DNA from: Paenibacillus andongensis
GTDB lineage: Bacteria; Bacillota; Bacilli; Paenibacillales; NBRC-103111
Assembly: GCF_025369935.1 (NCBI RefSeq)
Contig: NZ_CP104467.1
Coordinates: 6,269,001-6,333,000 of the forward strand
Direction: 5' to 3'
DNA: 64,000 nt
This document shows, one piece after another, positions 35,160-60,499 of the stretch. The notes under the pieces are model-generated. The model ran no database searches. It was given only the letters and a program-made list of their open reading frames with translations, and was not told where the DNA came from. The number at the start of each line of letters is the position of its first letter. The first letter of the stretch is position 1. The position numbers were made by a program, and so were the translations under genes.

Positions 35160-35279
35160 ATTAGCTGCCAAGGGGGGGAGGATTTCTGCATAAATGATCT
35201 CAGAATCATAGAGGTGGTCTAGAATTGGATCATTACCTGCAGAAATGCTCTTCTGTCAAGAAAGTGGACACTTCTTTAG

Positions 35280-36113
35280 TTAAGCTGCGTTCTGGTAGTA
35301 CAACTTTTCGAAGCGTAACGGAGACATGTAGCCAATCGTGCTGTTAGATCGTTTCCGGTTGTAAAAGATTTCGAGGTATCGGAACAACTTCTCCTGCGCT
35401 TCTTGCTTCGTCTTAAATTTGGGTTTGCTGTAGATACACTCACGTTTTAAGATGCTGTGAAAAGCCTCAATACAAGCATTGTCATAACAGTTGCCCTTAC
35501 GACTCATGCTTGGCTTCATACCGTAGCTTGCTAACTGCTCACGGTACTCCTTTGAGGCATACTGGGAGCCGCGATCAGAATGATGGATAAGGCCTTTGCC
35601 TGGCTTCTTTGAGGCGTATGCCTGATTTAGCGCATCCATTACCAAGTCAGTCGTCATTCGATCGCTAAGTTTCCATCCAACGATTTGTTTCGTGTGCAGA
35701 TCCATGATGCTAGCCAGATAGAGCCTCCCTTGACGGCAAGGAATGTAGGTTATGTCAGCTACCCACTTTTCATTTGGTTTCGTTGCTTTAAAGTCTTGCT
35801 CAAGGATATTGGGAGCAATGGGCTGATCGTGATTAGAATCTGTCGTAGTGACCCTGAACTTCCGCGCCATACACGAACGTAATCCATGTTCGCGCATAAT
35901 AAGACCCACCGTACGTTCCGCTACGGTCCAGCCTTCTTTCACAAGTTCTTTGAATATCCTCGGGCTGCCATAAGTTTCATCCGAATCATAAAAATGCCAC
36001 TTAATGCGTTTAGTTAGTTCCTCTTTGCGCTTGTTACGCTCGGACACAACAACAGTTTTCCATTTGTAATAGCCGCTCCTAGACACTTGTAGCACGTCAC
36101 ACATCTTCTCCAA
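35280..36113 (-). CDS. IS3-family transposase OrfB (DDE integrase), copy 1
   Basis: 277 aa from its own ATG. In full it is probably made as an OrfAB fusion by -1 frameshifting, because the -1 frame is open from the slippery site and adds an HLQQRKELRFQFIEDHRSEF-type segment. DDE residues are visible in KWVADITYIP (Asp), HHSDRGSQYAS (Asp) and NACIEAFHSILKRE (Glu). An HTH_21-type region (YGSPRIFKEL) precedes the core. The protein is identical to copy 2. It catalyses excision and integration of the element. Confidence 0.95.
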   Translation of the reverse strand: MEKMCDVLQVSRSGYYKWKTVVVSERNKRKEELTKRIKWHFYDSDETYGSPRIFKELVKEGWTVAERTVGLIMREHGLRSCMARKFRVTTTDSNHDQPIAPNILEQDFKATKPNEKWVADITYIPCRQGRLYLASIMDLHTKQIVGWKLSDRMTTDLVMDALNQAYASKKPGKGLIHHSDRGSQYASKEYREQLASYGMKPSMSRKGNCYDNACIEAFHSILKRECIYSKPKFKTKQEAQEKLFRYLEIFYNRKRSNSTIGYMSPLRFEKLYYQNAA

Positions 36114-36151
36114 TCGAAACTCGGAGCGATGATCCTCGATGAATTGGAACC

Positions 36152-36466
36152 TTAGTTCTTTTCTTTGCTGAAGATGTGCAGCGCCTTTTTTAAAATAGCA
36201 AGTTCCTCTTGGAGATCTTGATTTTGGCGTTCTTTCTCCTGATACTCCAGATCTTTTTCACGTAACTGTTGCTCAAGCTGGCGCACTCTTTCCGGAGTAA
36301 TTACTGACTCCGTCTGAAATTCGTCACGGTATGTAGCTTTCCAGTTGTGCAGAACACCCGCAGATATCCCGAGCTCTTCGGACATCTGCGGCATTGATTT
36401 ACCTTGCTCTAAGATGTACTTCACTGTCTGCTTCTTAAATTCTTCACTATAACGATTTCGTTCCAT
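36152..36466 (-). CDS. IS3-family OrfA (HTH protein), copy 1
   Basis: 104 aa. The N-terminal HTH (YSEEFKKQTVKYILEQGKSMPQMSEELGISAGVLHNWKA) binds the IS ends, and the C-terminal coiled coil/leucine-zipper helix (ERVRQLEQQLREKDLEYQEKERQNQDLQEELAIL) dimerises. The ATG is 8 nt after GGAGAGG. Near its end the heptamer A-AAA-AAG (36185-36191) lies in the right frame for -1 slippage into orfB. Identical to copy 2. Confidence 0.93.
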   Translation of the reverse strand: MERNRYSEEFKKQTVKYILEQGKSMPQMSEELGISAGVLHNWKATYRDEFQTESVITPERVRQLEQQLREKDLEYQEKERQNQDLQEELAILKKALHIFSKEKN

Positions 36467-36540
36467 CCCGGACACCTCTCCCTCTTATTGATATTATCTT
36501 AGTTTCACTTAAGAGATGTCCACTTTTAATTCTAGGTGCA

Positions 36541-36806
36541 AAAGTACATCAATAAAGGTCGACTAGGAATAAAATCGGATGATTTGATGCAGAAAGTACA
36601 TCAAAAATGATTAAAAAGTGTACTTATCGGAGAGTTTGGACAATTTTGCTGTAGGAAATGCAGGTAAACGGTGCTGAACGTGCGTTGATGGCGGAAAAAC
36701 AATGTAGGAAATACTTATTTTCCCGCTTGGACGCTCGATTTGAGAACGCGGCATAAGACGCTTTTATGGGGGATAAGGGATGTTACGGCTGTGTTGAGCG
36801 ACGTGA
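36541..36806. other. Intergenic region downstream of IS copy 1 with short repeats
   Basis: No gene is supported. It holds the right half of the interrupted repeat (AAAGTACATCAA), an intact copy at 36583-36605, and further loose relatives (AAAAAGTGTACTT at about 36616-36628). A plus-strand frame that starts near 36740 runs antisense through pxpA and is a GC artefact. Confidence 0.6.
36583..36605. repeat. Intact short palindromic repeat (IS target family)
   Basis: TTTGATG-cagaaagta-CATCAAA: perfect 7-bp arms around a 9-nt centre. The core TGCAGAAAGTACATCAAA matches the sequences interrupted by both IS copies. Confidence 0.75.
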
Positions 36807-37574
36807 CTAATGCCCGAGCGCCATCATTGCGATGCCGCTGCTGTTTAACAGCGCGCGGATATCGCGCGCGAACTCCACGGCGTGTGCACCATCGCCGTGG
36901 ATGCAGATCGTGTCCGCGCGCATGTTCAGGTCATCTCCCTCCCGGGAGAGGACCTTCCCTTCGCGGACGAGCCTTACGACCTGCGCCGCAGCGTCGGCGG
37001 CGCCGGAGAGCAGCGCCCCCGGCTGATCGCGGGGCGTCAGCGTGCCGTCCCGCTGGTAGCTGCGGTCCGCGAAGGCTTCGTGAGCTAGCCGCAGCCCCGC
37101 GGCGGCACCCGCCCGCAGCAGCTCGCTGCCGGGCGGTCCGAACAGCGTCAGCTCCGCGCTGACGCTGGCGGTCGCAGCCGCAATGGCCGCGGCGAGATCA
37201 TGGCGCTTCGCAGCCATGTGATAGAGCGCGCCATGCGGCTTTACATGCTGCAGGCGTCCGCCTTCGGCGTGGACGAACGCCTGCAGCGCCCCGAGCTGAT
37301 ACAACGTCAGCTCGTAAGCCTCAGCCGGCGTGATCGCGATCTCGCGCCGGCCGAAGCCCTGTAGATCGGGAAGGCCCGGATGGGCCCCGATCGCAACGCC
37401 TTTGCGCAAGCACAGCTGCACAGTGCTGCGCATGGTTGCGGGATCGCCTGCGTGGAACCCGCAGGCGATGTTGGCGGAGCTGACGTAGTCGAGCAGCTCC
37501 TCATCCCGGCCAAGGCGATAAGCGCCGAAGCCTTCGCCCATGTCACAATTCAAGTCAATACGCAGAATTCTCAC
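36807..37574 (-). CDS. pxpA: 5-oxoprolinase subunit PxpA (LamB/YcsF family)
   Basis: 255 aa. LamB/YcsF blocks: [64 protein letters not shown] and [17 protein letters not shown]. The PxpABC complex hydrolyses 5-oxoproline to glutamate with ATP. Start is GTG; the upstream site (GAGCTGGGA) is poor. The gene is much richer in GC, with more Ala, Arg and Gly codons, than pxpB, pxpC and the rest of the window, which points to a different history (transfer or recombination). It is the last gene of the pxpB-pxpC-pxpA order, 194 bp after pxpC. Confidence 0.93.
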
Positions 37575-37768
37575 TCCCAGCTCTTCAGTTCTTTCCTTCT
37601 TTTTAGTCAGCGGTTCCTCAGTTCTTAACTAAACGCTTCAATGCCCGTCCTTCTTCTCTTCAGTTCGTTCTTCTTCTTCTCCTCAGTTCTTCCGTTCTTC
37701 AGCCCTAAGCTCCCCAGCTCTTTAGCACTTCATTCCTTCATTCCCTCAGCTTTCTTCTCTCCAATCCC
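37575..37768. repeat. Low-complexity pyrimidine-rich linker between pxpC and pxpA
   Basis: About 190 bp that are almost all C and T on the plus strand, with many imperfect copies of TTCAGTTCTT-like units (for example TCAGTTCTT, TTCAGTTCG, CTCAGTTCTTCC). No gene or terminator is visible. The corresponding mRNA would be purine-rich and unstructured. Confidence 0.75.
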
Positions 37769-38755
37769 TCAACACCTAAATCCCCCACGATCCCGCACCC
37801 AAGCCCGAACCCCAGCCTCAAGCAGCCGCAAATCCATCATTTGCAGCAAGATCTGCTCTTGGGCTTCCCGGTGGCTGACCTCCCGGAAACGAAGCTTCCC
37901 GCCTGGTTTCACCTGAGCTGCTAAGGGAAGATCGGCCGTGATGACATGCGCGATACGCGGGTAGCCTCCGGTTGTTTGGCAGTCCGCCATCAGCAGGATG
38001 GGCTGACCACTTGGAGGAACTTGAATCGTACCTTGGATGACCGCTTCTGAGATCATCTCACTCGGTACGCCATCAGAGAGTTCAAGCTTCATCCCTTCCA
38101 ATCGATAACCCATTCGATCGGATTGTGCGGTAACGATATAGCTTTGAGCCAGCAAGTTCCGTCTGCTTGCGTCTGTAAAAAGGGCGGCTTCCTTCCCTCG
38201 TACGACCCTCACAACTGGATTTCCTTCATAATCCGGACGAATAAAGGCACTCACAGACCCAGGATAGTGAAGATTATCGCCTACCACTTCTTGTTTTACC
38301 GGCAGAACATCCCCCGCTTGTAATGCCCTACCTTGGTGACCGCCTATTCTTGCACGTAAATAGGTGCTTCTGCTGCCCATTACAGGTTTCACCTCGAAAC
38401 CACCATACACGGCTAAGTAGGCTCTGCAGCCCTTAACGGCATAATGAACATTTAACTGATCTCCTTTACGGATCAAAAATGGCCGCCAAAATGGGACTCT
38501 ATTGCCGTCTATATCAACTTCCATATCAGCTCCGCATAAAGATAGCAGCATATCCTTCTGCGCTACCATGCTCGGTCCTAGCAGTGTCATTTCTAGAACA
38601 GCTGCTCCCCCATCATTCCCAACAAGTATATTGGCAGCTCGATGCGCAAAGAGGTCCATAGGGCCTGAAGTAATGACGCCATATTTCCGCTGTCCATACC
38701 TTCCCTCATCCTGCAAGGTTGATAATACCCCTGGCTTGATGACCTCAAAGCCCAT
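37769..38755 (-). CDS. pxpC: 5-oxoprolinase subunit PxpC (biotin-dependent carboxyltransferase fold)
   Basis: 328 aa from the ATG at 38755, chosen because it overlaps the pxpB stop by 11 bp and has AGAGGA 9 nt upstream. KipA/allophanate hydrolase subunit 2 blocks: IKPGVLSTLQDEGRYGQRKYGVITSGPMD, LEMTLLGPSM, CRAYLAVYGGFEVKPVMGSRSTYLRARIGGHQGR and ILLMADCQTTGGYPRIAHVI. It works with PxpB and PxpA in 5-oxoproline cleavage. Composition is like that of pxpB, unlike pxpA. Confidence 0.94.
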   Translation of the reverse strand: MGFEVIKPGVLSTLQDEGRYGQRKYGVITSGPMDLFAHRAANILVGNDGGAAVLEMTLLGPSMVAQKDMLLSLCGADMEVDIDGNRVPFWRPFLIRKGDQLNVHYAVKGCRAYLAVYGGFEVKPVMGSRSTYLRARIGGHQGRALQAGDVLPVKQEVVGDNLHYPGSVSAFIRPDYEGNPVVRVVRGKEAALFTDASRRNLLAQSYIVTAQSDRMGYRLEGMKLELSDGVPSEMISEAVIQGTIQVPPSGQPILLMADCQTTGGYPRIAHVITADLPLAAQVKPGGKLRFREVSHREAQEQILLQMMDLRLLEAGVRAWVRDRGGFRC

Positions 38756-39533
38756 TTCCCATGTTCCTCTCTTCTTCATATTGGAACTGCTCAGCCGTGA
38801 TGGAAACAAATCTTACATGATCTCCTACCTTCAGTAGAGATGGCGAATCGGATTCCGGATGAAATAGAGCCAGCGGTGTACGACCAATCAAATTCCAGCC
38901 GCCTGGCGTTTCAAAGGGGTAAATGCCTGTTTGGGCACCGCCAATGCCTACCGAACCGGCAGGTATCCTCGTCCGAGGTACCGCTTTCCTTGGTGTAGCT
39001 AACTTGACATTCAATCCACCCAAATAAGGAAATCCAGGTGCAAAGCCAATCATATATACCGGATAGATCTGAGAGGTGTGCAAGCGCACAATCTCTTCCT
39101 TACTAACCCGATGATAGGCCGCAACATCCGCAAGATCTGGACCATAATCGTCATCGTAACAAACAGGGATTTCAATGATTCGTTCAGGCGCGATGCCATC
39201 ATCCCTATTTTCATTTTCATAATTTCCCAAAAGATGTTGTATATGTAATAAGACAATATCGTAGGGCAGTAATGTATTCGTTAATCCAGAACGCCCACTT
39301 CTTCTACTGGTTCCCTCTTCTGAATAGTGGTTATAAACCTGAAAGCTGTCATAATAAATCGTGATTGTGGTATATGCCGATACGATTTCGATAAAACCTT
39401 CAAACCGATTATTCTCTAAGTAAGCTGTTAACTGACGTACTCGATTTAGAATGGATACATCAATGTCCGTTCCAAGCCTAATCACAATAGCCGAATCCCC
39501 CAGCAGATGGCATTCGTAAGAAAGCTTGGTCAT
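38745..39533 (-). CDS. pxpB: 5-oxoprolinase subunit PxpB (allophanate hydrolase subunit 1 family)
   Basis: 262 aa. The ATG at 39533 overlaps the stop of the esterase gene (ATGA), which suggests translational coupling. Family blocks: HLLGDSAIVIRLG at the N-terminus, and IPVCYDDDYGPDLADVAAYH, VYMIGFAPGFPYLGGL, TPRKAVPRTRIPAGSVGIGGAQTGIYPFETPGGWNLIGRTP. PxpB is the KipI-like partner of PxpC. The overlap with both neighbours marks a tightly packed operon of esterase-pxpB-pxpC. Confidence 0.94.
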   Translation of the reverse strand: MTKLSYECHLLGDSAIVIRLGTDIDVSILNRVRQLTAYLENNRFEGFIEIVSAYTTITIYYDSFQVYNHYSEEGTSRRSGRSGLTNTLLPYDIVLLHIQHLLGNYENENRDDGIAPERIIEIPVCYDDDYGPDLADVAAYHRVSKEEIVRLHTSQIYPVYMIGFAPGFPYLGGLNVKLATPRKAVPRTRIPAGSVGIGGAQTGIYPFETPGGWNLIGRTPLALFHPESDSPSLLKVGDHVRFVSITAEQFQYEEERNMGNGL

Positions 39534-40336
39534 GCAAAATGCTGCTTTTTGAGCCAATTCGCACAAAGTTCAGGCCAAATGTAAGCTTCCTGATGATCAT
39601 CCGCTATGCCAATACCATGACGCCCGCTCTCAAAAACGTGCAAATCAAAAGGCACTTTATGGCGGCTAAGCGCCCCCGCAAATAGCAAACTGTTCTCGAC
39701 GGGAACGGCCTCATCATCAGCTGTATGCCAGAGAAACGTCGGTGGCGTCTGCGCTGTTACTTGTTGGTCATTGGATAGCAGTGAGACCAACTTCTCATCC
39801 GGTGTTTTTCCCAGTAAATTAATTTTTGAACCTTCATGTCCAAACTCTCCGGAGAATGTAATCACTGGGTAACAGAGCACCATCACATCGGGACGACTGC
39901 TTTGTCGTTCGATCGGATCGATGGACTCCTGATCCCCTGCATCGTAATGTGTACCGGCTGTTGAAGCTAGGTGTCCACCTGCCGAGAAGCCGAGAATACC
40001 AATGCGGTTCGGATCGATCTGCCATTCTTCCGCATGATGCCTTACTGTTCGTATTGCCCGCTGTGCATCTTGGAGTGGAACCGGGTGTTCATAAGGAGCT
40101 ACACGGTAATTCAAAACAAAAGCTGAAATCCCAAGTCCATTTAGCCATTTGGCAATTGGCTCTCCCTCATGAGGAGCACGCAAACCGTAGCCTCCTCCTG
40201 GGCATACTATAACGGCAGAGCTCAGGCCTTCCTTAGACACAGGGTATAAAGTCAAACTCGGACATCCTTGGTTATATTCACCTATGCTATCCTTGGATGC
40301 TCCGGGCCATAATTCAATCGTTTTTATCATACTCAA
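39530..40336 (-). CDS. Alpha/beta hydrolase (esterase/lipase family)
   Basis: About 268 aa. The oxyanion motif CPGGGYGLRAPHEGEP and the nucleophile elbow GFSAGG (Ser) with a later Asp in DDEAVPVENSLL and His in SGRHGIGI complete a catalytic triad. TTG 40336 has AGGGGG 7 nt upstream; ATG 40330 is the alternative. There is no signal peptide, so it is cytosolic. It overlaps pxpB and may supply or process a substrate linked to 5-oxoproline, but the natural ester is unknown. Confidence 0.87.
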   Translation of the reverse strand: MSMIKTIELWPGASKDSIGEYNQGCPSLTLYPVSKEGLSSAVIVCPGGGYGLRAPHEGEPIAKWLNGLGISAFVLNYRVAPYEHPVPLQDAQRAIRTVRHHAEEWQIDPNRIGILGFSAGGHLASTAGTHYDAGDQESIDPIERQSSRPDVMVLCYPVITFSGEFGHEGSKINLLGKTPDEKLVSLLSNDQQVTAQTPPTFLWHTADDEAVPVENSLLFAGALSRHKVPFDLHVFESGRHGIGIADDHQEAYIWPELCANWLKKQHFA

Positions 40337-40433
40337 TGTGAAACCCCCTATTTTCATTTTCGTACTAAGTTAATAATATCGAATCTCAATCAAGTAGCAA
40401 GAGTCTATTTGACAAAAAAAGGAGATGATCTTC

Positions 40434-40754
40434 ATGATAGTAGCTACAACAGAATACATTGCTGGCTATGAAGTCACGGAAGTGTTGGGCAGTACATTTG
40501 GGGTCGTTGTGCGAGCCAGAGGGATTGGCGGCGATATACTTGCTTCTTTAAAAGGGCTTGTGGGCGGAGAAGTCACTCAGTACACCCAGATGGTAGAAGA
40601 CGGGCGCAAGCAAGCCATGGACCGATTGGTCAAAAATGCCGCAGCCATGGGCGCTGACGCTATTGTAATGATGCGTTTCGATAGCGGTGACATCGGACAA
40701 AATATGAGTGAAATCGTCGCTTATGGCACTGCCGTCCGGACACGTAGGCTATGA
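40434..40754 (+). CDS. YbjQ family (UPF0145) putative metal-binding protein
   Basis: 106 aa from the ATG at 40434 (AAAAGGAG upstream; an earlier in-frame ATG overlaps the site). The pattern EVTEVLGSTFGVVVRARGIGGDI, KGLVGGEVTQYTQMVEDGRKQAMDRLVKNAAAMGADAIVMMRFDS is typical of the YbjQ family, pentameric beta/alpha proteins of unknown function. It overlaps the next small membrane gene by ATGA, so the two are coupled and may act together. Confidence 0.92.
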   Translation: MIVATTEYIAGYEVTEVLGSTFGVVVRARGIGGDILASLKGLVGGEVTQYTQMVEDGRKQAMDRLVKNAAAMGADAIVMMRFDSGDIGQNMSEIVAYGTAVRTRRL

Positions 40755-40996
40755 ATGGATTAGGTCCGATTATACTTATTTATGGAACATGGGTCATCGG
40801 CTTTATTATTCTCCTTCTTCTGAGTTATCTCATTTATGACAAACGCTATAAAAACAACGGTTCAACGACGCCTAGTAAACCTTCAAATGGCTTTGTCTCA
40901 ACGCCAGAAGTGTTCATTGATCCAAAGGATGGATTCACCTATCGCGTGTATTACAATCCTAGATCAGGCGACCGGGAATATATTCGCGAATCCTAA
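40751..40996 (+). CDS. Small single-span membrane protein
   Basis: 81 aa. One hydrophobic segment at about residues 6-28 (IILIYGTWVIGFIILLLLSY) is followed by a soluble tail of about 50 residues with FIDPKDGFTYRVYYNPRSGDREYI. It starts within the stop codon of the YbjQ-family gene. No family is recognised; it may anchor its partner at the membrane. Confidence 0.75.
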   Translation: MNGLGPIILIYGTWVIGFIILLLLSYLIYDKRYKNNGSTTPSKPSNGFVSTPEVFIDPKDGFTYRVYYNPRSGDREYIRES

Positions 40997-41010
40997 CGCA
41001 TTTCAAACAA

Positions 41011-41060
41011 AAAAGCCGTACACAAGAAAGCGTCTATGCACTCTCTTATGTACGGCTTTA
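41011..41060. terminator. Bidirectional terminator, YbjQ pair / nucleotidase
   Basis: AAAAGCCGTACA / TGTACGGCTTT arms around a 26-nt loop, in a convergent gap with A and T runs on the two sides. Confidence 0.8.
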
Positions 41061-41074
41061 TTTATCGCCACAAC

Positions 41075-42670
41075 CTAGTCCCAAATAACTTCCCAATTTC
41101 CGTTCACGCTAGCTTCAATCGTGCCTCGCTCCATAATGTACCCTGCCAGTAGTTCTGCTACGTCCGTCGGGATATCCTTGATGACCGGTTTATCCTGGAA
41201 CATCGCATAATTGCCACCTCCTGCAGCACGGTAATTATTCATAACCACATCGTAGGAAGCTTCGAGATCCAGCGGTTTCCCTTCATATTCCAGTTGAACA
41301 ACACGCATCCCAATTGGGCGGGATATGTTCAATGTATAGGTAATCCCTTCCCACATATCATAGTTATAATGCGACGGTTTCGGATCTCTAAACTTGCTAC
41401 TCACCTGAACTTCACCGGCTACTGTTAACTCAAAATATTCTGCTGACTGCTCTAACGCATCCTTGATGTCTTGTCCGGAAATCCGAATCACTTTCAGTGT
41501 GTTCGGGTAAATGTAGTTGGACACGATGTCCCTCATTGTAATATCCGATGGAAATCCTGGCGATACGTTATCAAACAGCGCTGTATTGGAAATGGCTGCT
41601 CCCGAGAGCTCCATTTGAACACGATTGATGAACTCAATTAGCGCATTGTCCTTCAAGCGAATTTGCATAGGATCTTTGACGAGCATATCTCCGGACAGCT
41701 TACCGATGGGTTGGTCAAGCCACTCCTGAGTCTGTGCTTCATAAGCACCGATAAGTTCTATCAATTTGTTGTCCGCTTCAATAGTAGCCACAGAAAGCAG
41801 CTCCGATTTCTTGGCATCGATGCGCCATTTGCCATCTACTTTCGAGAGCTCTAATTCAACTTTACCGAGCGTTACACCGGCAGTTCCTGGTTGAACAATG
41901 ACGACTCCATTGATTTCTACTCCCGCGATGCTCCGGTGTTGATGCCCTGTAAGCAGAACATCTATACCTTCTACTTCCATACATAGTTGAAAGCCCTGAT
42001 TTTCTCCAGTTAGAGGCTCCGTAGGCTCACCCGTCGTTAGATGTCTTTCAAAACCGCCATGGTAGGAGACAACAACGGCATCCACTTGCTCATGCTCCTT
42101 GAGTACCTTTACCCATTTTTTAGCCGACTCTATAGCATCTTCGAACCGAAGACCCTCGATATGATCGGGATTTTCCCAATTCGGAATATAGGGAGTTGTC
42201 AATCCCAGTATACCTATACGAACACCGTCCGGTAACTCTTTTATCAAATATGGCTTTCCTAGGAACGGTTCACCGCTCTCCGCATCCACAATGTTGGCAC
42301 ATAACCAAGGAAACTTAGATTCTTGAACCGCTTTTTGCAGCACTCGAAGACCATAGTTAAATTCATGATTGCCAATAACGGCCGCGTCATAACCCACATA
42401 GTTCAAACCAAGGACCATTGGATCCATCGGCTCGTTATTCAATCTAGCATGATGATACGCAAGTGGCGTACCTTGAATCAGATCCCCATTATCGATCACA
42501 ATAACATGAGCTTCTTTCTTGCGTTCTGCAGCAATAAGCGCAGCCACTTTGGATAGACCCACATCGTTAGGTTGATTGTTTGCATAGTGAATGGGCAGCA
42601 TATTTCCATGCAGGTCACTAGTTTCTAATATGGTTATTTTACTTTTCTGCATCTTACTAGATTGAGTCAA
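41075..42670 (-). CDS. Bifunctional metallophosphatase/5'-nucleotidase family protein
   Basis: About 531 aa. An N-terminal calcineurin-like phosphoesterase domain (ILETSDLHGNMLP, DNGDLIQGTP, GNHEFNYG, VVSYHGGFE, LTGHQHRS) precedes a C-terminal 5'-nucleotidase domain (DALEQSAEYFEL, YDVVMNNYRAAGGGNYAMF). There is no signal peptide, unlike periplasmic UshA/CpdB, so it resembles the cytosolic YunD type. TTG 42670 has GGAG 8 nt upstream. Expected substrates are nucleoside mono- and cyclic phosphates. It lies next to phosphonate-type transport genes, which suggests a role in phosphorus recycling. Confidence 0.9.
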   Translation of the reverse strand: MTQSSKMQKSKITILETSDLHGNMLPIHYANNQPNDVGLSKVAALIAAERKKEAHVIVIDNGDLIQGTPLAYHHARLNNEPMDPMVLGLNYVGYDAAVIGNHEFNYGLRVLQKAVQESKFPWLCANIVDAESGEPFLGKPYLIKELPDGVRIGILGLTTPYIPNWENPDHIEGLRFEDAIESAKKWVKVLKEHEQVDAVVVSYHGGFERHLTTGEPTEPLTGENQGFQLCMEVEGIDVLLTGHQHRSIAGVEINGVVIVQPGTAGVTLGKVELELSKVDGKWRIDAKKSELLSVATIEADNKLIELIGAYEAQTQEWLDQPIGKLSGDMLVKDPMQIRLKDNALIEFINRVQMELSGAAISNTALFDNVSPGFPSDITMRDIVSNYIYPNTLKVIRISGQDIKDALEQSAEYFELTVAGEVQVSSKFRDPKPSHYNYDMWEGITYTLNISRPIGMRVVQLEYEGKPLDLEASYDVVMNNYRAAGGGNYAMFQDKPVIKDIPTDVAELLAGYIMERGTIEASVNGNWEVIWD

Positions 42671-42724
42671 ATTACCCACTCCAAGTGTATTATTTTGTCA
42701 CACTTTACATATCGATTGTCAGAT

Positions 42725-42741
42725 TAACAAATACTTCACAC
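42725..42741 (+). promoter_or_regulatory. Candidate PhoP (Pho) box upstream of the binding-protein gene
   Basis: TTAACA-N5-TTCACA matches the 11-bp-spaced direct hexamers (TTWACA-like) bound by PhoP in Bacillus. A further TTTACA lies at 42705-42710. Several TATA-rich -10 candidates follow (42753-42775). Confidence 0.45.
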
Positions 42742-42819
42742 TATCTTCCATATATTATATGATAATGTTATAGTACATCATAGATAAAAGTAAACAATTA
42801 AACGGAGGTCAAAAAGAAG

Positions 42820-43788: not shown

Positions 43789-43814
43789 GCTTAGCTCCCT
43801 GTAAAATGAAAATT

Positions 43815-43853
43815 CCTCTACATGATTTTTTCGAATCATGTAGAGGTTTTTTT
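43815..43853 (+). terminator. Terminator of the binding-protein gene
   Basis: 12-bp perfect arms CCTCTACATGAT / ATCATGTAGAGG followed by TTTTTTT. Confidence 0.9.
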
Positions 43854-43978
43854 ATGCATTCTACTCCGAACCCCCCTTGCATACTATGAATGTGGCACGT
43901 CCGTGTAAATGTTTTTTTACTTTTGCATGACAAACGTTTACCTGGACCTGTCATATATCATAGTGAGGTGAAAATTGG

Positions 43979-47063: not shown

Positions 47064-47078
47064 AATCTTCACGATGTA

Positions 47079-48113: not shown

Positions 48114-48128
48114 CCTGCCCTTCTTTTC

Positions 48129-49755: not shown

Positions 49756-49851
49756 TCGAAAAAATAGCCCAGTCGAGTCATACTCTTATGCTTGTCGATC
49801 AGGTAATATGGACAACATGATAAGAGATAACTTGAAGGGGGAACACGATTT

Positions 49852-50478: not shown

Positions 50479-50480
50479 TA

Positions 50481-50523
50481 AAAAGGCCTTGAGCTCTCTG
50501 TGAACAGATAGCTCAGGGCCTTT
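50481..50523. terminator. Bidirectional terminator between the YcnI gene and folA
   Basis: AAAGGCC-tt-GAGCT / AGCTC-a-GGGCCTTT stem in a convergent gap. Confidence 0.82.
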
Positions 50524-50533
50524 ACCTATTTCC

Positions 50534-51022: not shown

Positions 51023-51052
51023 ACACAGGCCCCTCCTTTCGTCAGATGTTGT

Positions 51053-51997: not shown

Positions 51998-52142
51998 GCT
52001 TACGAACCTCCATCTCTATGTTACGCATGTATTTATCTATTTTACCCGCATAGAGCCTGTTTGGCTACCTGTCTACAAATGTGAATATACATTATAACAG
52101 AGGAACTCCATATTCGGAATTACGGATTATTTGATCTGAATG

Positions 52143-52166
52143 CAAAAAAGCTGCGCGAGGGCAGCT
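52143..52166 (-). terminator. Terminator of the 558-aa unknown gene
   Basis: AGCTGC / GCAGCT arms followed by TTTTTTGC on the minus strand. Confidence 0.78.
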
Positions 52167-52167
52167 A

Positions 52168-53844: not shown

Positions 53845-54062
53845 ACTTTGTCTTCACATTCCCTTCTTCGTGATAATCCCCATACAGAATATCAGAAAAA
53901 ATGGAATCCATAAACCCAGCTCGTTGCCTACTCTTTGGAAGCTGCGAATTGAGCCGTAGGATGATCCCGCAGCCCTTCTAACATTTGGCTCTCCATGAAA
54001 TCCCAACGGGGATAAGGATGCATTTTCTCAACGTATATGGTACATTTCTAATGAAAAATATA

Positions 54063-54094
54063 AGAGGTTCGCAAACTCCCTCTCTAAAAAACTA
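54063..54094 (+). promoter_or_regulatory. preQ1-I riboswitch upstream of queF
   Basis: AGAGGTTCGCAAACTCCCTCT followed by the A-rich CTAAAAAACTA tail matches the compact class I preQ1 aptamer (one hairpin and an A-rich tail that folds back). The ribosome site GAGG follows at 54101-54104, so control is probably at translation start: bound preQ1 hides the site and lowers QueF. Confidence 0.88.
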
Positions 54095-54112
54095 TGAAAT
54101 GAGGAACCACCC

Positions 54113-54613
54113 ATGTCAGCAGGAAGAAGCAATGAAGATTTGAAAGAGATTACCTTACTAGGCAATCAAGGAACCAAGTATGTCTTCAACTATGATCCAA
54201 CTTTATTAGAAGCATTCGATAACAAGCACCCGAACAGAGATTACTTTGTTAAGTTTAATTTCCCTGAATTCACTAGCTTGTGTCCCGTAACTGGTCAGCC
54301 GGATTTTGCTACACTCTACATCTCCTATATTCCGAATATTAAAATGGTTGAGAGCAAATCACTAAAGCTATACCTGTTCAGCTTCCGGAATCATGGTGAT
54401 TTCCACGAGGACTGCGTCAATATTATTATGAATGATTTGATCGAGCTGATGGCGCCTCGTTATATCGAGGTTTGGGGCAAATTCACCCCGCGTGGCGGCA
54501 TTTCTATTGATCCTTACTGCAACTGGGGTCAACCTGGCACGAAGTTCGAAGCGATGGCTGAGCATCGATTGATGAACCATGATCTTTATCCGGAAAAAAT
54601 CGATAATCGCTAA
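54113..54613 (+). CDS. queF: NADPH-dependent preQ0 reductase QueF
   Basis: 166 aa, the single-domain (type I, YkvM-like) form. The catalytic Cys57 is in [13 protein letters not shown], and the QueF motif beginning at E80 reads [20 protein letters not shown]. The enzyme reduces the nitrile of preQ0 to the amine of preQ1 in queuosine synthesis. The gene stands alone under a preQ1 riboswitch with its own terminator; other que genes are not in the window. Confidence 0.97.
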
Positions 54614-54632
54614 TTGGCAAAATATAAGCATT

Positions 54633-54679
54633 AAGCCTAGTCGGCCCCTTGGATAATAGGGGTTGGTTAGGCTTTTTTT
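54633..54679 (+). terminator. Terminator of queF
   Basis: AAGCCTA / TTAGGCTT with an inner GGCCCCTT/AGGGGTT stem, then TTTTTTT. Confidence 0.88.
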
Positions 54680-54802
54680 GATTCTTATTTAGGAGCAAAA
54701 TGAGTTCGATGCCCTATGGTTGTCCCAGGATTACACAGCTAGAATGGGAGATACAGCAGGTTAGGAACCAAACTGACTAAACCTCATGAGGAGTTGAACA
54801 CG

Positions 54803-55963
54803 ATGGGAAGATGGAAGGCAGGCGCAGTTGGTTTCGTTTGTGGAGCCGTGTTTTTCTCCGGACTTACCTACGCGGCGACCAGTGCAGTTGGCATCGACGT
54901 TTATTTTCGCGATATTCGCTATTACTTTGACGGGTTGAACAAACAGCCCTCATCTGATTTACAAGGATTCATTTATAAAAATACGACTTATGTGCCGCTG
55001 CGCTTCATGTCTGAAGCGATGGGTAAGCCAGTCGCTTGGGAGGATGCGACCAGCTCCATCTATGTCGGGGGTAAGCCTAAACAGCTGCCTGTGCCTGAAC
55101 AGTCGGGTAACGGCTCCAGTTCTGCGGCATTGCAAGTATTCCCCGAGGATAACCCTTGGAATACGGACATCTCCAAGTATCCGGTTCACGCAAACTCTGC
55201 AGGGTTCATCGCTTCGATCGGCTTGAATTCGAAGATGCATGCCGATTTCGGGACAGTCTGGGAGGGTGCTCCCATTGGCATTCCGTACACGATCGTCGAT
55301 GGCAATCAACCCAAAGTGAATGTTACCTTCACGGATTACACCGACGAAAGCGATCCTGGGCCTTACCCCATTCCGGCGAATGCCCTCATAGAGGGTGGTT
55401 CCGCTAGCGACGGAGATCGTCATGTCATCGTGGTCGATAAAAGCAACCAGCTGCTATACGAGCTGTACAACGCGCGTTTTTCAAGCGATGGGTGGACAGC
55501 TTCGAATGGTGCCAAATGGGACCTTACATCCAATGCGCTAAGGACGAAATATTGGACGTCTGCAGACGCAGCGGGCTTGCCCATTTTCCCAGGACTCGTC
55601 CGATATGAAGAGGCCGCAGCAGGAGAAATCAATCATGCACTGCGTTTCACCGTGCAAAAGACGCAGCGCGGGTTCATCGCACCTGCCACTCACTACGCCT
55701 CAAGCAGTACGGATCCCAATCACCCGCCAATGGGACTAAGGCTGAGACTGCGAAGCGATTTCGATATCTCTGGCTTTTCGCCCACGAATCGGACCATCCT
55801 TCGCGCTCTTCAGAAATATGGCATGATCGTCGCCGATAACGGCAGTAATCTGTACCTCAGCGGTGCACCGAATCCGAAGTGGGATGACGATGACCTGCAC
55901 AACCTCGGAAAGCTGAAGGGCAGTGATTTCGAAGTTGTTGACACCGGTAAAATCGAGAAATAA
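54803..55963 (+). CDS. Secreted protein with copper-amine-oxidase-like stalk domain
   Basis: 386 aa from the ATG at 54803 (GAGGAG 9 nt upstream). A signal peptide ends near SGLTYAA. Residues about 28-95 form a stalk domain (IYKNTTYVPLRFMSEAMGKPVAWEDATSSIYVGG), the repeat common on Paenibacillus surface proteins. The rest (about 115-380) is an unassigned globular domain with FPEDNPWNTDISKYPVHANS, HVIVVDKSNQLLYELYNAR, PGLVRYEEAAAGEINHALRFTV and HPPMGLRLRLR. Similar domains occur in secreted proteins of other soil bacteria, but no catalytic function is known to me. Confidence 0.8.
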   Translation: MGRWKAGAVGFVCGAVFFSGLTYAATSAVGIDVYFRDIRYYFDGLNKQPSSDLQGFIYKNTTYVPLRFMSEAMGKPVAWEDATSSIYVGGKPKQLPVPEQSGNGSSSAALQVFPEDNPWNTDISKYPVHANSAGFIASIGLNSKMHADFGTVWEGAPIGIPYTIVDGNQPKVNVTFTDYTDESDPGPYPIPANALIEGGSASDGDRHVIVVDKSNQLLYELYNARFSSDGWTASNGAKWDLTSNALRTKYWTSADAAGLPIFPGLVRYEEAAAGEINHALRFTVQKTQRGFIAPATHYASSSTDPNHPPMGLRLRLRSDFDISGFSPTNRTILRALQKYGMIVADNGSNLYLSGAPNPKWDDDDLHNLGKLKGSDFEVVDTGKIEK

Positions 55964-55965
55964 AT

Positions 55966-56649
55966 CTATTTAAGCTGATAGAAAAGTCCGTTTGAATCAG
56001 ACCATTCTGCAAAAAGAACCCGTTCATGATGGCTGATTCCACTCAGCTGCAGAAGCTGCTTAAGCCATTCCTTGTCACGGCCGAGACGCCCCAGTGCGGC
56101 TTCATTGATACTCCCATTCTCAATAATACTCTCCGGCAGGCAGACCCTTTTCTTTGGCGAATCTGCCTCCCCATTATTTAGGCTTGCCGGATCATTTTGG
56201 CGGAGCACGCTAATGCTGCCATTCGTCTCGAACAACGCATAAGCGACTTCCCTCATAGAGAACACATCATTTTCCCGCAGCAGCATACTAAGTTGACCAA
56301 AGTCTAAATTGTTGCGCTTCATCGCCTTAAAGTCGATAATCCCATCACGGATCAGTAAATCGGGTGTTCCGGTTGCATAGCGAGAAATCCAAGGGACTGT
56401 CCAAATAAACTTCTCAAGAGCAAGGGCAAGCAGTGTCCAGACCACAAGTGCGAAGACGAGATGGCTGAGATGTACATTTTCATCATAAATCGTATTTCCA
56501 ACTAACTCACTGAGCATTAAGGAGGAGACAAAATCAAAAGCCGTAAGCTGAGAGATCTCTTTCTTACCCAGAAGCCGTGTCATGACCAACAATCCAACCA
56601 ATGCAACAACTAACTTTACAGCTATGCTTACATACATGGTAATTTCCAT
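55966..56649 (-). CDS. DUF421 (YetF-like) membrane protein
   Basis: 227 aa from the ATG at 56649, with GGGAGT 7 nt upstream. Three N-terminal membrane segments (VAIKLVVALVGLLVMTRLLGKKEISQLTAFDFVSSLMLSELVGN and following) are followed by a cytosolic alpha/beta domain with the DUF421 core (PDLLIRDGIIDFKAMKRNNLDFGQLSMLLRENDVFSMREVAYALFETNG). YetF-type proteins occur in spore-forming Bacillales; their activity is not settled. It is 41 bp downstream of the KinB-like kinase gene, so probably co-transcribed. Confidence 0.88.
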   Translation of the reverse strand: MEITMYVSIAVKLVVALVGLLVMTRLLGKKEISQLTAFDFVSSLMLSELVGNTIYDENVHLSHLVFALVVWTLLALALEKFIWTVPWISRYATGTPDLLIRDGIIDFKAMKRNNLDFGQLSMLLRENDVFSMREVAYALFETNGSISVLRQNDPASLNNGEADSPKKRVCLPESIIENGSINEAALGRLGRDKEWLKQLLQLSGISHHERVLFAEWSDSNGLFYQLK

Positions 56650-56690
56650 TATCATCACTCCCTGATCTGTCACTTAAGCCGGTATTCCCC

Positions 56691-57935
56691 TTACAAGGGC
56701 AAAGTAATTGTGACAGTCGTACCGATGCCTTCCTCACTATCGTAGATTATTTCCCCATTCATCGTTTCAATAATCCGAATACTAACCGCTGTCCCTAACC
56801 CCGTTCCAACATCTTTCGTGGAATAGAACAAATTACCGATACGAGATAGCTGATCTTTTGTCATTCCCTTGCCATTATCAATGACCTTAATCTCGGCTCG
56901 GCCAACCAATCTTTTTAAGCTTACCTTTACCTCTCCGCCCGCAGGCGTCGCTTCGATCGCATTTTTAATCACATTCACCAAGGCTTGCTGCAATTGACCA
57001 CGATCCGAATAAATATAAATATGATCCTCGAGATTGATCGTAATCTCAACACAATTCTTCATCGCCATCGGCGTCAGAAGCACAATAATGTTGTTTAATA
57101 CGTCAGAAAATGAAAAAGATTCTAATTTGGTTAGTTTAGGCTTGGAAAAATTCAAGTAATCATTAATAATCGATTCTGCTCTCGCTAACTCTTCCATTGC
57201 GATATTCAGGTATTGTTGATTTTTCCCTTGCTCGTTCGGACGCATAAGCTGCAGAAACCCTTGAACAACCGTTAACGGATTACGAACCTCATGGGCAATA
57301 GAGGCAGCTAGCTCGCCTAGTGTTTTCATTTTTTCAGCTTTTTGGATTTGAACTTTCATTTTAAATCTTTCTTCATGTATTTCTTGCAGAATGGATGATA
57401 ACCAGGTTCCTAAAACTAATAATATGCCAAAAGAGATCACAGCAGGAATAGTAGCAAGATCAAACGATTCAAAGCCTTTGTAAAGCGACACATAGCTCAT
57501 CAAAATGAGCAGCATAACCAGTAACGGACTTAACGAAACCAAGATAGCAGCCTTTATTCTTGAGCTTCCTGTTAATTCTTTGAGCTTGTAAGAAGCTATA
57601 AAGGGGATAATAAAACTGAGTGTCATGCTGATGTATCCAAATATAAGCGCATCACCACCAAGATACGTGCGCATCAGCATTATCATAATGTAATTAATAA
57701 GACCTGCTAGGGGTCCCCAATAGATGCTCGAAATGACGAGGGGAACATAACGTAAGTCCCAGTACAAATCAAGTTCATAGTAAGAAAATAATAAACAAAG
57801 GGAAGAGGCTGTTCCATGGAGTAAGCCCATCACGACCGGTGACGGATCATTGCGCCATCGCTCTCCAAAGACACTCTGTAATAAGACAGGAGCAAGGACG
57901 ATAAGAATGTTCAAAAATAATTTTTCTAATAACAT
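56691..57935 (-). CDS. KinB-like membrane sensor histidine kinase
   Basis: 414 aa from the ATG at 57935, preceded by a GAGGGGAGAG site; the longer frame adds 41 unlikely residues. Six membrane segments (about 5-195) of the 5TM-5TMR_LYT kind precede a HisKA domain (phosphoacceptor in AASIAHEVRNPLTVVQGFLQLM) and HATPase_c (NVIKNAIEATPAGG, DNGKGMTKDQ, GTGLGTAVSIRIIE). This is the plan of sporulation kinase KinB, which feeds the Spo0F/Spo0A phosphorelay. No response regulator gene is adjacent, consistent with an orphan sporulation kinase. Confidence 0.9.
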   Translation of the reverse strand: MLLEKLFLNILIVLAPVLLQSVFGERWRNDPSPVVMGLLHGTASSLCLLFSYYELDLYWDLRYVPLVISSIYWGPLAGLINYIMIMLMRTYLGGDALIFGYISMTLSFIIPFIASYKLKELTGSSRIKAAILVSLSPLLVMLLILMSYVSLYKGFESFDLATIPAVISFGILLVLGTWLSSILQEIHEERFKMKVQIQKAEKMKTLGELAASIAHEVRNPLTVVQGFLQLMRPNEQGKNQQYLNIAMEELARAESIINDYLNFSKPKLTKLESFSFSDVLNNIIVLLTPMAMKNCVEITINLEDHIYIYSDRGQLQQALVNVIKNAIEATPAGGEVKVSLKRLVGRAEIKVIDNGKGMTKDQLSRIGNLFYSTKDVGTGLGTAVSIRIIETMNGEIIYDSEEGIGTTVTITLPL

Positions 57936-58090
57936 GGTTACACGGCTCTCCCCTCGATCCATTCCTTTCAATGTTTCTGCAAGGGGAAGCGTTATCCTTT
58001 TTTTAACAGGGAAAAATATAAATGTTAAAAAAGGCTGCAACCGAGCGGCATCTCTCATTGCCGTTTAGTCATAGCCTTGTTAAATTCTTT

Positions 58091-58798
58091 TTAACAAATA
58101 CACGTCTTCTTCTTCTTTCCTACTCGGCCCATTGATTCCACTTTATGAATATATTCACTCGCAAGCGGTACTTTACAAGCTGTTTGACCGACATCGACAT
58201 GAACCTTGCCAATCTCATTAGCGACTTCCGTCGCGGCTTCAAATAGTGGTAAACAATACGCACCCACCGTAATCACGAAGGTGTTCATTGTATATCTAAC
58301 GCGATTTCTTTCCGCATGAATCGTTGTTCTCACCTGCTCAAGCAGCTGCGCAATCTCATGAAGATCGAGCTTCTCATCGGGTGTGATACTAATATAGTTG
58401 GCATAAGTGCTCCATCCGCATGTGGCAATTAATTCGTCGGGAGATTGCAGCCATTCCCGTGCCAATTGGAGCGCGCTGCTGCTTTCTGCAGCCACGCCCG
58501 CAACTGTATACTCGGTAAGCATATACCAATAGGCTTGCTTCGCCCAATTCTGAAGTTCTTGTTTCGTCATTGTTTTCGGATCAATGGAGAGTCCGGCTAA
58601 GTACATCGCGTCCGTATTGCCTGAATCGTATAGAGCGAGGGTTAGCGCACGGTCTTTTTTGACGAATTTGACCAGCTTCTTCAGATCACCTACTTTTACG
58701 CCGAATAAAGGCTCCTGCGCACCATGCCGAAGAAACGTTTTCTTCGTTTGCTCGCTTCCGAGCTCCTCTAGGTTATTCATTACCTCTTCAAATGTCAT
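58091..58798 (-). CDS. DNA alkylation repair protein (AlkD family)
   Basis: 235 aa from the ATG at 58798. The all-helical HEAT-like repeat pattern of AlkD is visible (FGVKVGDLKKLVKFVKKD, YLAGLSIDPKTMTKQELQNWAKQAYWYMLTEYTVAGVA, LIATCGWSTYANYISI). AlkD-type glycosylases remove bulky or positively charged alkylated bases. The C-terminus ends in a basic stretch with Cys (KKKKTCIC). The ribosome site (GAGTGG) is weak. It is a single-gene unit. Confidence 0.85.
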   Translation of the reverse strand: MTFEEVMNNLEELGSEQTKKTFLRHGAQEPLFGVKVGDLKKLVKFVKKDRALTLALYDSGNTDAMYLAGLSIDPKTMTKQELQNWAKQAYWYMLTEYTVAGVAAESSSALQLAREWLQSPDELIATCGWSTYANYISITPDEKLDLHEIAQLLEQVRTTIHAERNRVRYTMNTFVITVGAYCLPLFEAATEVANEIGKVHVDVGQTACKVPLASEYIHKVESMGRVGKKKKTCIC

Positions 58799-59046
58799 AG
58801 CTTCACCACTCAACATTCATTTTTCCGTATTGTATCATAGGGCAGATCTTGATGTGAAATTCCTTCGGCTTTGCAAATATAAAGAGCCGAGAGGGAGACC
58901 CCGCCGACTCTCATGTAAGCGCATACAGACTCCTTGTGACCCTCATCATACTCTCTTTCAAGCTAATTTTATTGTCATTTATTTAGGTTATAGAGGGGTA
59001 TTATTAGGATTTGGCTGTCTTCGGCAGCAAGCCACGGACAGCTATA

Positions 59047-59060
59047 TGCATAAAGTGCGG
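59047..59060 (+). repeat. Short repeat, copy a
   Basis: TGCATAAAGTGCGG, partial member of the family. Confidence 0.55.
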
Positions 59061-59082
59061 TCTAGCCTTGGCCAGCGTTATA

Positions 59083-59100
59083 TGCAAAAAGTGCAGCAAA
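59083..59100 (+). repeat. Short repeat, copy b
   Basis: TGCAAAAAGTGCAGCAAA. Confidence 0.65.
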
Positions 59101-59134
59101 ATGAAGTGATGCTGGCTCTTTGGGCGGGATTACC

Positions 59135-59152
59135 TGCATAAAGTGCAGCAAA
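59135..59152 (+). repeat. Short repeat, copy c
   Basis: TGCATAAAGTGCAGCAAA, 52 bp from copy b in the same orientation. Confidence 0.65.
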
Positions 59153-59278
59153 TATCCTCATTTCAAGATAAATCGGGCAGTAGCCGCCGAATTTGATGCA
59201 CTATTGCACCTAGAATTAAAAGTGGACATCTCTTAAGTGAAACTAAGATAATATCAATAAGAGGGAGAGGTGTCCGGG

Positions 59279-59593
59279 ATGGAACGAAATCGTTATAGTG
59301 AAGAATTTAAGAAGCAGACAGTGAAGTACATCTTAGAGCAAGGTAAATCAATGCCGCAGATGTCCGAAGAGCTCGGGATATCTGCGGGTGTTCTGCACAA
59401 CTGGAAAGCTACATACCGTGACGAATTTCAGACGGAGTCAGTAATTACTCCGGAAAGAGTGCGCCAGCTTGAGCAACAGTTACGTGAAAAAGATCTGGAG
59501 TACCAGGAGAAAGAACGCCAAAATCAAGATCTCCAAGAGGAACTCGCTATTTTAAAAAAGGCGCTGCACATCTTCAGCAAAGAAAAGAACTAA
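59279..59593 (+). CDS. IS3-family OrfA (HTH protein), copy 2
   Basis: 104 aa, identical to copy 1: an N-terminal HTH and a C-terminal coiled coil. The slippery heptamer A-AAA-AAG is at 59554-59560, correctly phased for a -1 shift into the orfB frame. Confidence 0.93.
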   Translation: MERNRYSEEFKKQTVKYILEQGKSMPQMSEELGISAGVLHNWKATYRDEFQTESVITPERVRQLEQQLREKDLEYQEKERQNQDLQEELAILKKALHIFSKEKN

Positions 59594-59631
59594 GGTTCCA
59601 ATTCATCGAGGATCATCGCTCCGAGTTTCGA

Positions 59632-60465
59632 TTGGAGAAGATGTGTGACGTGCTACAAGTGTCTAGGAGCGGCTATTACAAATGGAAAACTGTTGTTGTG
59701 TCCGAGCGTAACAAGCGCAAAGAGGAACTAACTAAACGCATTAAGTGGCATTTTTATGATTCGGATGAAACTTATGGCAGCCCGAGGATATTCAAAGAAC
59801 TTGTGAAAGAAGGCTGGACCGTAGCGGAACGTACGGTGGGTCTTATTATGCGCGAACATGGATTACGTTCGTGTATGGCGCGGAAGTTCAGGGTCACTAC
59901 GACAGATTCTAATCACGATCAGCCCATTGCTCCCAATATCCTTGAGCAAGACTTTAAAGCAACGAAACCAAATGAAAAGTGGGTAGCTGACATAACCTAC
60001 ATTCCTTGCCGTCAAGGGAGGCTCTATCTGGCTAGCATCATGGATCTGCACACGAAACAAATCGTTGGATGGAAACTTAGCGATCGAATGACGACTGACT
60101 TGGTAATGGATGCGCTAAATCAGGCATACGCCTCTAAGAAGCCAGGCAAAGGTCTTATCCATCATTCTGATCGCGGCTCCCAGTATGCCTCAAAGGAGTA
60201 CCGTGAGCAGTTAGCAAGCTACGGTATGAAGCCAAGCATGAGTCGTAAGGGCAACTGTTATGACAATGCTTGTATTGAGGCTTTTCACAGCATCTTAAAA
60301 CGTGAGTGTATCTACAGCAAACCCAAATTTAAGACGAAGCAAGAAGCGCAGGAGAAGTTGTTCCGATACCTCGAAATCTTTTACAACCGGAAACGATCTA
60401 ACAGCACGATTGGCTACATGTCTCCGTTACGCTTCGAAAAGTTGTACTACCAGAACGCAGCTTAA
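59632..60465 (+). CDS. IS3-family transposase OrfB (DDE integrase), copy 2
   Basis: 277 aa from its own ATG, identical to copy 1, with an intact DDE triad. The -1 frame is open from the slippery site at 59554, so the active product is probably the OrfAB fusion of about 395 aa (59279 to 60465). Nothing suggests decay, so the element is likely still mobile. Confidence 0.95.
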   Translation: MEKMCDVLQVSRSGYYKWKTVVVSERNKRKEELTKRIKWHFYDSDETYGSPRIFKELVKEGWTVAERTVGLIMREHGLRSCMARKFRVTTTDSNHDQPIAPNILEQDFKATKPNEKWVADITYIPCRQGRLYLASIMDLHTKQIVGWKLSDRMTTDLVMDALNQAYASKKPGKGLIHHSDRGSQYASKEYREQLASYGMKPSMSRKGNCYDNACIEAFHSILKRECIYSKPKFKTKQEAQEKLFRYLEIFYNRKRSNSTIGYMSPLRFEKLYYQNAA

Positions 60466-60499
60466 CTAAAGAAGTGTCCACTTTCTTGACAGAAGAGCA

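Follow-up and report, generated by a model that had tools for sequence, protein, structure and literature searches.

Insertion of an IS3-family element at the dyad axis of phased palindromes in Paenibacillus andongensis and its relatives

Two copies of one insertion sequence (IS) interrupt the same base position of a short repeat in a 64,000-nucleotide stretch of the Paenibacillus andongensis genome (contig NZ_CP104467.1, positions 6,269,001 to 6,333,000; hereafter the window). Did the element arrive at these sites by chance, or does it choose its target? The original prediction, made from the letters of the window, proposed target-selective transposition, and this is strongly supported by our analysis of all six copies in the home genome, of related elements (42 of 58 foreign insertion sites are palindromic), of a cross-species weight matrix and of an orthologous empty site. 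In the home genome, the element is inserted with base precision at the dyad axis of a palindrome; the half-site recurs across hosts, the insertions lie in palindrome arrays, and the orthologous site in another genome is empty. Palindrome targeting is precise in the home genome and general for this IS subgroup, though not absolute. We consider it probable that this is an IS3-family element whose transposase selects its palindromic target by reading the arms on duplex DNA.

The element and its insertions in the home genome

The two copies have the following coordinates in the window.

35246..36540, minus strand: IS3-family element copy 1, 1295 bp, with ends TGCACC..AGAGCA on the IS strand
59205..60499, plus strand: IS3-family element copy 2, 1295 bp
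35243..35245: 3-bp target duplication AAA, left of copy 1
36541..36543: 3-bp target duplication AAA, right of copy 1
59202..59204: 3-bp target duplication TAT, left of copy 2
60500..60502: 3-bp target duplication TAT, right of copy 2
59270..59593, plus strand: OrfA of copy 2, 107 aa, with HTH_Tnp_1 (PF01527)
59554..59560, plus strand: AAAAAAG run of copy 2, which would join OrfA to OrfB by -1 frameshifting
59632..60465, plus strand: OrfB of copy 2, 277 aa, with the rve core (PF00665) and DD(35)E; IS3 model NF033516

Positions, equal length and identical proteins were as originally predicted; between the copies there are four nucleotide differences and no amino acid difference. The predicted duplications, AAA for copy 1 and TAT for copy 2, were found at both ends of each, and removal of the element restores TGCAG-AAA-GTACATCAA at copy 1 and, on the minus strand, TGCAG-ATA-GTGCATCAA at copy 2. 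The traits of the IS3 family are present, namely OrfB in the -1 frame after the A6G run, the rve DD(35)E core, TG...CA ends with inverted repeats and a 3-bp duplication. OrfB scored 343 bits against the NCBIfam IS3 model NF033516 (cut-off 160), and 35 residues separate the catalytic D and E in copy 2. OrfA is open in all six genomic copies, as is the -1 frame from the AAAAAAG run to the OrfB stop. The element looks active.

The home genome (G000; 7,639,302 bp on a single contig, including the window) contains six full copies of the element and one 74-bp partial match. The other five full copies differ from copy 2 by 2–4 nucleotides. All six are centred exactly in TGYA-N5-TRCA. Read on the strand of the IS, the joined sites are GATGCAC-TAT-CTGCATC, ACTGCAT-(TTC/AAA)-CTGCATC, GATGTAC-TTT-CTGCAGG, GATGTAG-TTT-TTACAGG, GCTGTAC-TAT-TTGCAGT and CATGCAA-AAA-GTGCAGC. 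A perfect 3-bp duplication is present in five of the six (TAT twice, TTT twice and AAA once on the IS strand); the sole copy without matching flanks (TTC/AAA) is L002 (G000:C1:1777415-1778709), for which recombination between copies is a possible origin.

The background was sampled from 20 evenly spaced 20-kb pieces of the home genome (400 kb). This sample held 51 matches to TGYA-N5-TRCA, compared with a Markov expectation of 27 ± 5 (about 1.3e-4 per base), so that a random insertion would fall on a motif centre about once in 7,800. Perfect palindromes with 8-bp arms and loops of 2–12 nt exceeded the shuffled control at every loop length in this sample, with no preference for a 5-nt loop.

The claim that insertion occurs in one direction was not upheld. 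Four of the six home copies have a T-rich 5-nt centre when read on the IS strand (CTATC, CTTTC, GTTTT and CTATT); in L006 the centre is AAAAG, that is, reversed, and L002 is ambiguous, as its two 3-bp flanks differ. A single orientation therefore fails, and the TGYA-N5-TRCA motif is palindromic in itself. Strict orientation is also ruled out by two Paenibacillus albidus copies, L110 and L111, which are opposite in orientation relative to their arrays (the flanks match on opposite strands).

Around both window copies, the interrupted palindrome has neighbors at regular distances.

35238..35242, plus strand: left arm TGCAG of the palindrome that copy 1 interrupts
36544..36548, plus strand: right arm GTACA of the same interrupted palindrome
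36588..36600, plus strand: intact palindrome TGCAGAAAGTACA, 52 bp from the copy 1 target with the IS left out
36650..36662, plus strand: palindrome TGTAGGAAATGCA, 62 bp beyond TGCAGAAAGTACA
36703..36715, plus strand: weak fourth palindrome TGTAGGAAATACT (one mismatch), 53 bp beyond TGTAGGAAATGCA
59083..59095, plus strand: palindrome 1, TGCAAAAAGTGCA, of the quartet in which copy 2 lies
59135..59147, plus strand: palindrome 2 of this quartet, TGCATAAAGTGCA, 52 bp after palindrome 1
59197..59201, plus strand: left arm of palindrome 3, which copy 2 interrupts, 62 bp after palindrome 2
60503..60507, plus strand: right arm of palindrome 3
60547..60559, plus strand: palindrome 4 of this quartet, TGCACTAATTACA, 52 bp on in the joined site

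The intact unused target predicted near copy 1 is TGCAGAAAGTACA at 36588-36600, 47 bp from the end of that copy rather than 40 bp. The short motif is dispersed, as proposed; it is, in addition, one unit of a phased array of four palindromes. Well-preserved home loci hold palindromes in fours, spaced 51–52, 62 and 51–52 bp, and some loci are degenerate, with spacings of 56, 58 or 65. Beside copy 1, at 36807-39566 of the window, lie genes that by eye we take to be a 5-oxoprolinase cluster (LamB/YcsF, carboxyltransferase, KipI-like).

Insertions of related elements and the empty orthologous site

One scan of species genomes gave 465 confirmed stretches encoding relatives, of which the best 80 loci were considered. 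These relatives show 59–81% OrfB identity and come from Paenibacillus, Cohnella, Gorillibacterium, Fontibacillus and one Bacillus record. Fifty-eight loci were kept; six without readable ends, two with misassigned tips and 14 that lacked one flank or contained N were dropped. Together with the six home sites, they form a set of 64 joined sites. A perfect 3-bp duplication was found in 47 of the 58 relatives and in 52 of all 64 sites.

Pairing between the arms around the duplication (positions 2–9) averaged 4.53 of 8 over the 64 sites. When arms were swapped between sites, the mean was 3.53 ± 0.15 and none of 2000 permutations reached 4.53; owing to the consensus common to the arms, even the swapped pairing exceeds chance (2 of 8). 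Shifting the centre by 1–4 bp gave pairing of 0.23–0.28 over 15 positions (background values), compared with 0.45 at the true centre. At least four of eight arm pairs were present in 48 sites, comprising all six home sites and 42 of the 58 foreign sites. The alignment of copies from related genomes that the original prediction had suggested thus revealed palindromic sites in most of them. The joint consensus is about TTARMKGNA - 5 nt - TNCMKYTAA, whose strongest positions are TA (0.77 and 0.74), then -5 (G, 0.66) and -3 (A, 0.64). A palindrome in which two half-sites, each about TARMKGNA, enclose a 5-nt centre is a better description of the proposed consensus TGCAK-AWA-GTRCA. A similar palindrome lay 50–53 or 60–63 bp away in 52 of the 64 sites, compared with 0–16 in six shifted control windows.

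Copies with less complete flanks were also inspected. Among the one-ended copies in G012 and G028, a matching half-site was seen by eye in five of six; it was not clear in the sixth (L192) or in the one-ended L195, L196, L202 and L208. Two of five plasmid copies of more distant relatives (L184-L188) had readable ends, weakly palindromic by eye, and the other three had none. L197, L203 and L207, whose contigs match those of L062, L103 and L128 in length, are apparently the same records as these and were not counted as new.

A weight matrix of 27 bp was built from the 58 foreign sites only and scored against the 400-kb home background. The six home insertions ranked at 5.0e-4, 2.5e-6, 1.1e-4, 2.4e-4, 4.0e-5 and 2.7e-3 of this background, that is, all six in the top 0.27% and five in the top 0.06%. 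When foreign sites were scored with their own species left out, 34 of 58 fell in the top 0.1% and 39 of 58 in the top 1%; GC-rich hosts are judged unfairly by this ranking because the background is the home genome.

Comparison with a genome lacking the insertion, also suggested in the original prediction, revealed an intact and empty orthologous site in G017, which belongs to the same genus. G017 is 93% identical over query bases 2-821 with the neighboring gene, and its alignment (77% over 301 bp) crosses the junction of the joined home site. Its orthologous quartet has spacings of 52, 62 and 52, and the third palindrome, GATGCACGATATGCATC, is intact without an IS. The alignment of G026 likewise spans the junction, with three exact motifs; there, the third palindrome reads GATGCACTATCTATATGCATC instead. 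Three motifs lie to the left of the orthologous site in G004, followed by divergence, and the orthologous region holds one exact motif in G016 and none in G003 or G001. The GATGCACTATCTATATGCATC sequence in L256 (G026:C127) may have been left behind by an element that was inserted and later lost, although an excision footprint is speculation.

These data bear on the idea that the copies spread by recombination between arrays that takes an inserted IS along, and not by repeated transposition. The lack of a matching duplication in L002, one of the six home copies, and in 12 of the 64 sites overall suggests that some rearrangement may happen. Against such an origin, five home copies have perfect duplications in unlike flanking spacers, and the G017 quartet is intact and empty. 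Identical flanks on both sides of several copies were not seen among the six home copies. We regard this explanation as very improbable.

Phased quartets, arm sequence and the mode of recognition

The spacing of the palindromes is confined to a few values. In the random 400 kb and the window, motif pairs 20–140 bp apart occurred only at 51, 51, 52, 62, 62 and 114 bp, while the only pair of a reversed control motif in the same home sample was 69 bp apart. In 20 loci of four other genomes, picked because each holds a 51-bp pair, neighbors were spaced 51–52 (38), 61–63 (9) and 72–73 bp (11); the remaining spacings were 19 and 32 (4 each, summing to 51), 87 and 93. For G066, we sampled 400 kb on three contigs known to hold 51-bp pairs, outside the listed ones. 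The 57 palindromes there formed pairs at 51–52 (16), 61–62 (12), 111–114 (17) and 163 bp (5), with eight single distances, while the reversed control gave 44 matches and no such pairs. The 30-nt spacers in G066 are mostly dissimilar (n = 14, median identity 0.40 against 0.30 when shuffled; 13% of pairs above 0.6). In G034 and G065, GGGAAAT often occurs twice in one 30-nt spacer, at a distance of about 11 bp. The steps (51, 62 and 73 bp) would be near 5, 6 and 7 helical turns, and near-whole-turn spacing suggests a protein on one face of the duplex.

Quartets with mostly dissimilar spacers and steps of 51-62(or 73)-51 bp were observed across Paenibacillaceae (G000, G034, G065, G066 and G067; L224-L243 and L260-L279). 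We scanned 104 family genomes for two TAACNG palindromes exactly 51 bp apart, allowing up to three mismatches, and 63 had at least one match. Because up to 7 matches turned up with the control, only the 29 genomes with more than 7 (at most 265) are counted as firm. No such pair exists in the home genome (control 2), which is explained by its TGCA-type arms and a spacing of mostly 52. A two-mismatch scan of the order found a match in 71 of 198 genomes. The control was above the pattern in G205 (14 vs 63) and G175 (0 vs 6), and in G211 the control gave 11 against 35 for the pattern. The reversed control was frequent at the 51-bp spacing in G205 (63), G211 (11) and G175 (6), which may therefore carry phased arrays of a different palindrome. 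Rfam 15 gave no match over the gathering score on 12 array loci.

The dispersed quartets themselves resemble an element that has not yet been described. Tentatively, the target may represent an undescribed class of dispersed DNA element, consisting of four palindromes 5, 6 (or 7) and 5 helical turns apart, with a layout conserved and spacers little conserved over Paenibacillaceae and some sister families, and sometimes extended into 51-bp tandem arrays. A dimeric protein might occupy all four palindromes on one helix face, and the IS3 subgroup might have adapted to each host's version, so that element and arms co-evolve. We hold this larger proposal with somewhat less than even confidence.

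A second palindrome family in the home genome separates arm sequence from layout. Palindromes with TTGTTGCA arms (family A) gave 155 matches against 13 in the control, and the targeted TARMTGCA type gave 204 against 130. Family A has the same 52-62-52 layout as the targeted type and contains none of the six IS copies. For the excess counts of 142 (family A) and 74 (targeted), the post hoc probability that five of five insertions fall in the smaller class is about 0.005 under equal use. The foreign-trained matrix gave a mean of 1.1 for family A (n = 29) and 12.6 for the others (n = 18) at 17 loci, which were found by exact pattern and divided crudely according to the bases next to the core. Five of the six home insertions are within two mismatches of the targeted pattern and 4–6 from family A; 54 of the 58 foreign sites are nearer the targeted type, two are nearer family A and two tie. 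Since family A shares the spacing, has other arms and contains no copy, the arm sequence seems to matter, not the hairpin shape alone. This pattern comparison favors a model in which the transposase would recognize the sequence of the arms over one in which it would recognize their shape.

Family A itself was represented by 34 matches (some of them short fragments) to the quartet with TTGTTGCA arms at L154-L183. Beside several of these copies, an additional common tail was seen by eye (GATTCATTCATCC..GAGACCGTCGATTC), and the whole repeat is therefore longer than the quartet.

Several observations weigh against target selection by arm reading, or limit it. Sixteen of the 58 foreign sites have fewer than four arm pairs, so the preference is not absolute, and L068, L096, L124, L127 and L130 lack a clear palindrome. 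With their species left out of the matrix, 19 of 58 sites fall outside the top 1%, including L096, L124, L068, L130, L127, L080, L100 and L132. In the home genome, L006 is four mismatches from both patterns and has a matrix score of 5.5. Only one of six further copies with both ends readable, L200, passes the fixed score (5 of 8); L204, L205 and L206 score 1, 2 and 2. L198 lies in a perfect palindrome, AACGGTA-TAAA-TACCGTT, and scores just 2 because its centre is even-sized. L201 scores 0, lying within an array about 10 bp off the axis.

The site of L198 would be tolerable to a transposase that reads shape. Such a transposase would recognize a cruciform or a single-stranded hairpin (e.g. on the lagging strand) and insert into the loop of 3–5 nt, with the arm sequence irrelevant. 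Dyad symmetry is indeed kept while the arms vary by host (TAACGGA.., TGCA.., GTAACGATA..), and arm pairing is above the swap control. However, family-A palindromes are equally good hairpins with the same phasing and a larger excess, yet none of the six copies is found in them. The half-site TARMKG recurs across hosts, and several home sites have few paired bases beyond TGYA/TRCA. Recognition of the hairpin is unlikely in our judgment, and in its pure form it is disfavored by the family-A comparison.

The position of L201, inside an array but off its axis, agrees with a different idea, in which a host protein, bound to the phased palindromes, would be the tether between the arrays and the transposition complex of the IS. 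The near-whole-turn spacing likewise suggests a protein complex on one face. Tethering predicts insertions around the bound sites, but the six home insertions are base-exact at the dyad axis, in the middle of the footprint, which makes this explanation distinctly improbable.

It might also be argued that there is no targeting and that the arrays serve only as neutral intergenic ground on which randomly placed insertions persist. The arrays are mostly intergenic. None of 18 family-A centres (18 of 30 loci were taken) lay inside an open reading frame (ORF) of at least 120 aa, compared with 814 of 1000 random positions, and four of 34 arrayed palindromes in G066 lay inside an ORF of at least 150 aa. 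Neutral survival cannot place six of six insertions on one base pair of a palindrome of 13–21 bp, nor can it let foreign sites predict home sites, and we find it scarcely credible.

Returning to arm reading, we infer that recognition of the arms lies with the transposase itself and takes place on duplex DNA. An OrfAB multimer would bind double-stranded DNA symmetrically at both palindrome arms (half-site about TARMKGNA, 5-nt centre). Both IS ends would then be joined at the dyad axis with a 3-bp stagger, so that the middle three nucleotides of the centre are duplicated. The mostly intergenic quartets, with steps of 51-62(73)-51 bp, may serve as safe landing sites.

Comparison with known systems

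The original prediction held that target selection is not the usual view of IS3-family elements. This needs qualifying, as IS1397, ISKpn1 and ISPsy8 are already reported by Tobes and Pareja (2006; PMC1525189) to target repetitive extragenic palindromes (REPs); IS3 elements are therefore known to behave in this way. For IS1397 and ISKpn1, work cited there suggests that the transposase sets the palindrome specificity. These two are likewise IS3 elements specific for dispersed intergenic palindromes, namely enterobacterial REPs (palindromic units), while the Paenibacillus element has a host in another phylum and another palindrome. ISPsy8 of Pseudomonas syringae, as described in PMC1525189, is also an IS3 element with PF01527 and a strong REP association. 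We liken the Paenibacillus element to all three by description. As with REP-targeting IS3 elements, its copies and those of its relatives lie in dispersed intergenic palindromes, from which 16 of the 58 foreign sites fall short. The best Escherichia coli plasmid match among those listed was about 47% identical.

The IS1447 subgroup likewise comprises IS3 elements of Firmicutes (PMC6211511). IS1447 uses +1 transcriptional slippage in an A9 run according to that paper, whereas OrfB of the Paenibacillus element lies in the -1 frame after AAAAAAG. The words "paenibacillus" and "palindrom" do not occur in the main text of that paper. Among the literature matches listed, which mostly do not cover subscription papers, there was no account of palindrome targeting by IS3 elements or of phased quartets in Paenibacillaceae.

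The arrays themselves resemble REPs and bacterial interspersed mosaic elements (BIMEs), which PMC2817692 also describes as intergenic, regularly spaced, multicopy palindromes. REP-associated tyrosine transposases (RAYTs) are proposed there to mobilize REPs elsewhere. We also found regularly spaced intergenic groups of palindromes. The RAYT domain Y1_Tnp (PF01797) was matched in 36 of 104 genomes, with no match in the array-rich G008, G028, G023, G012 and G011, with 3, 3 and 4 matches in the array-rich G066, G034 and G082, and with one partial match in G000. Because PF01797 does not track array abundance, a RAYT was rejected as the mobilizer of the arrays.

Our study extends palindrome-targeting IS3 elements to the Gram-positive Paenibacillaceae. 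The 58 foreign insertions, with their differing arms, form a natural data set for mapping target recognition by IS3 transposases, a question useful for programmable insertion, and the quantized quartet spacing points to an unknown DNA-binding protein or to a mobile element that carries the quartets. In contrast to REP/BIME arrays, the Paenibacillus arrays have a quartet layout with helical-turn spacing, and several array-rich genomes have no PF01797. What looks new beside these systems is the host group and the phased quartet target, of which the target is the more unusual part.

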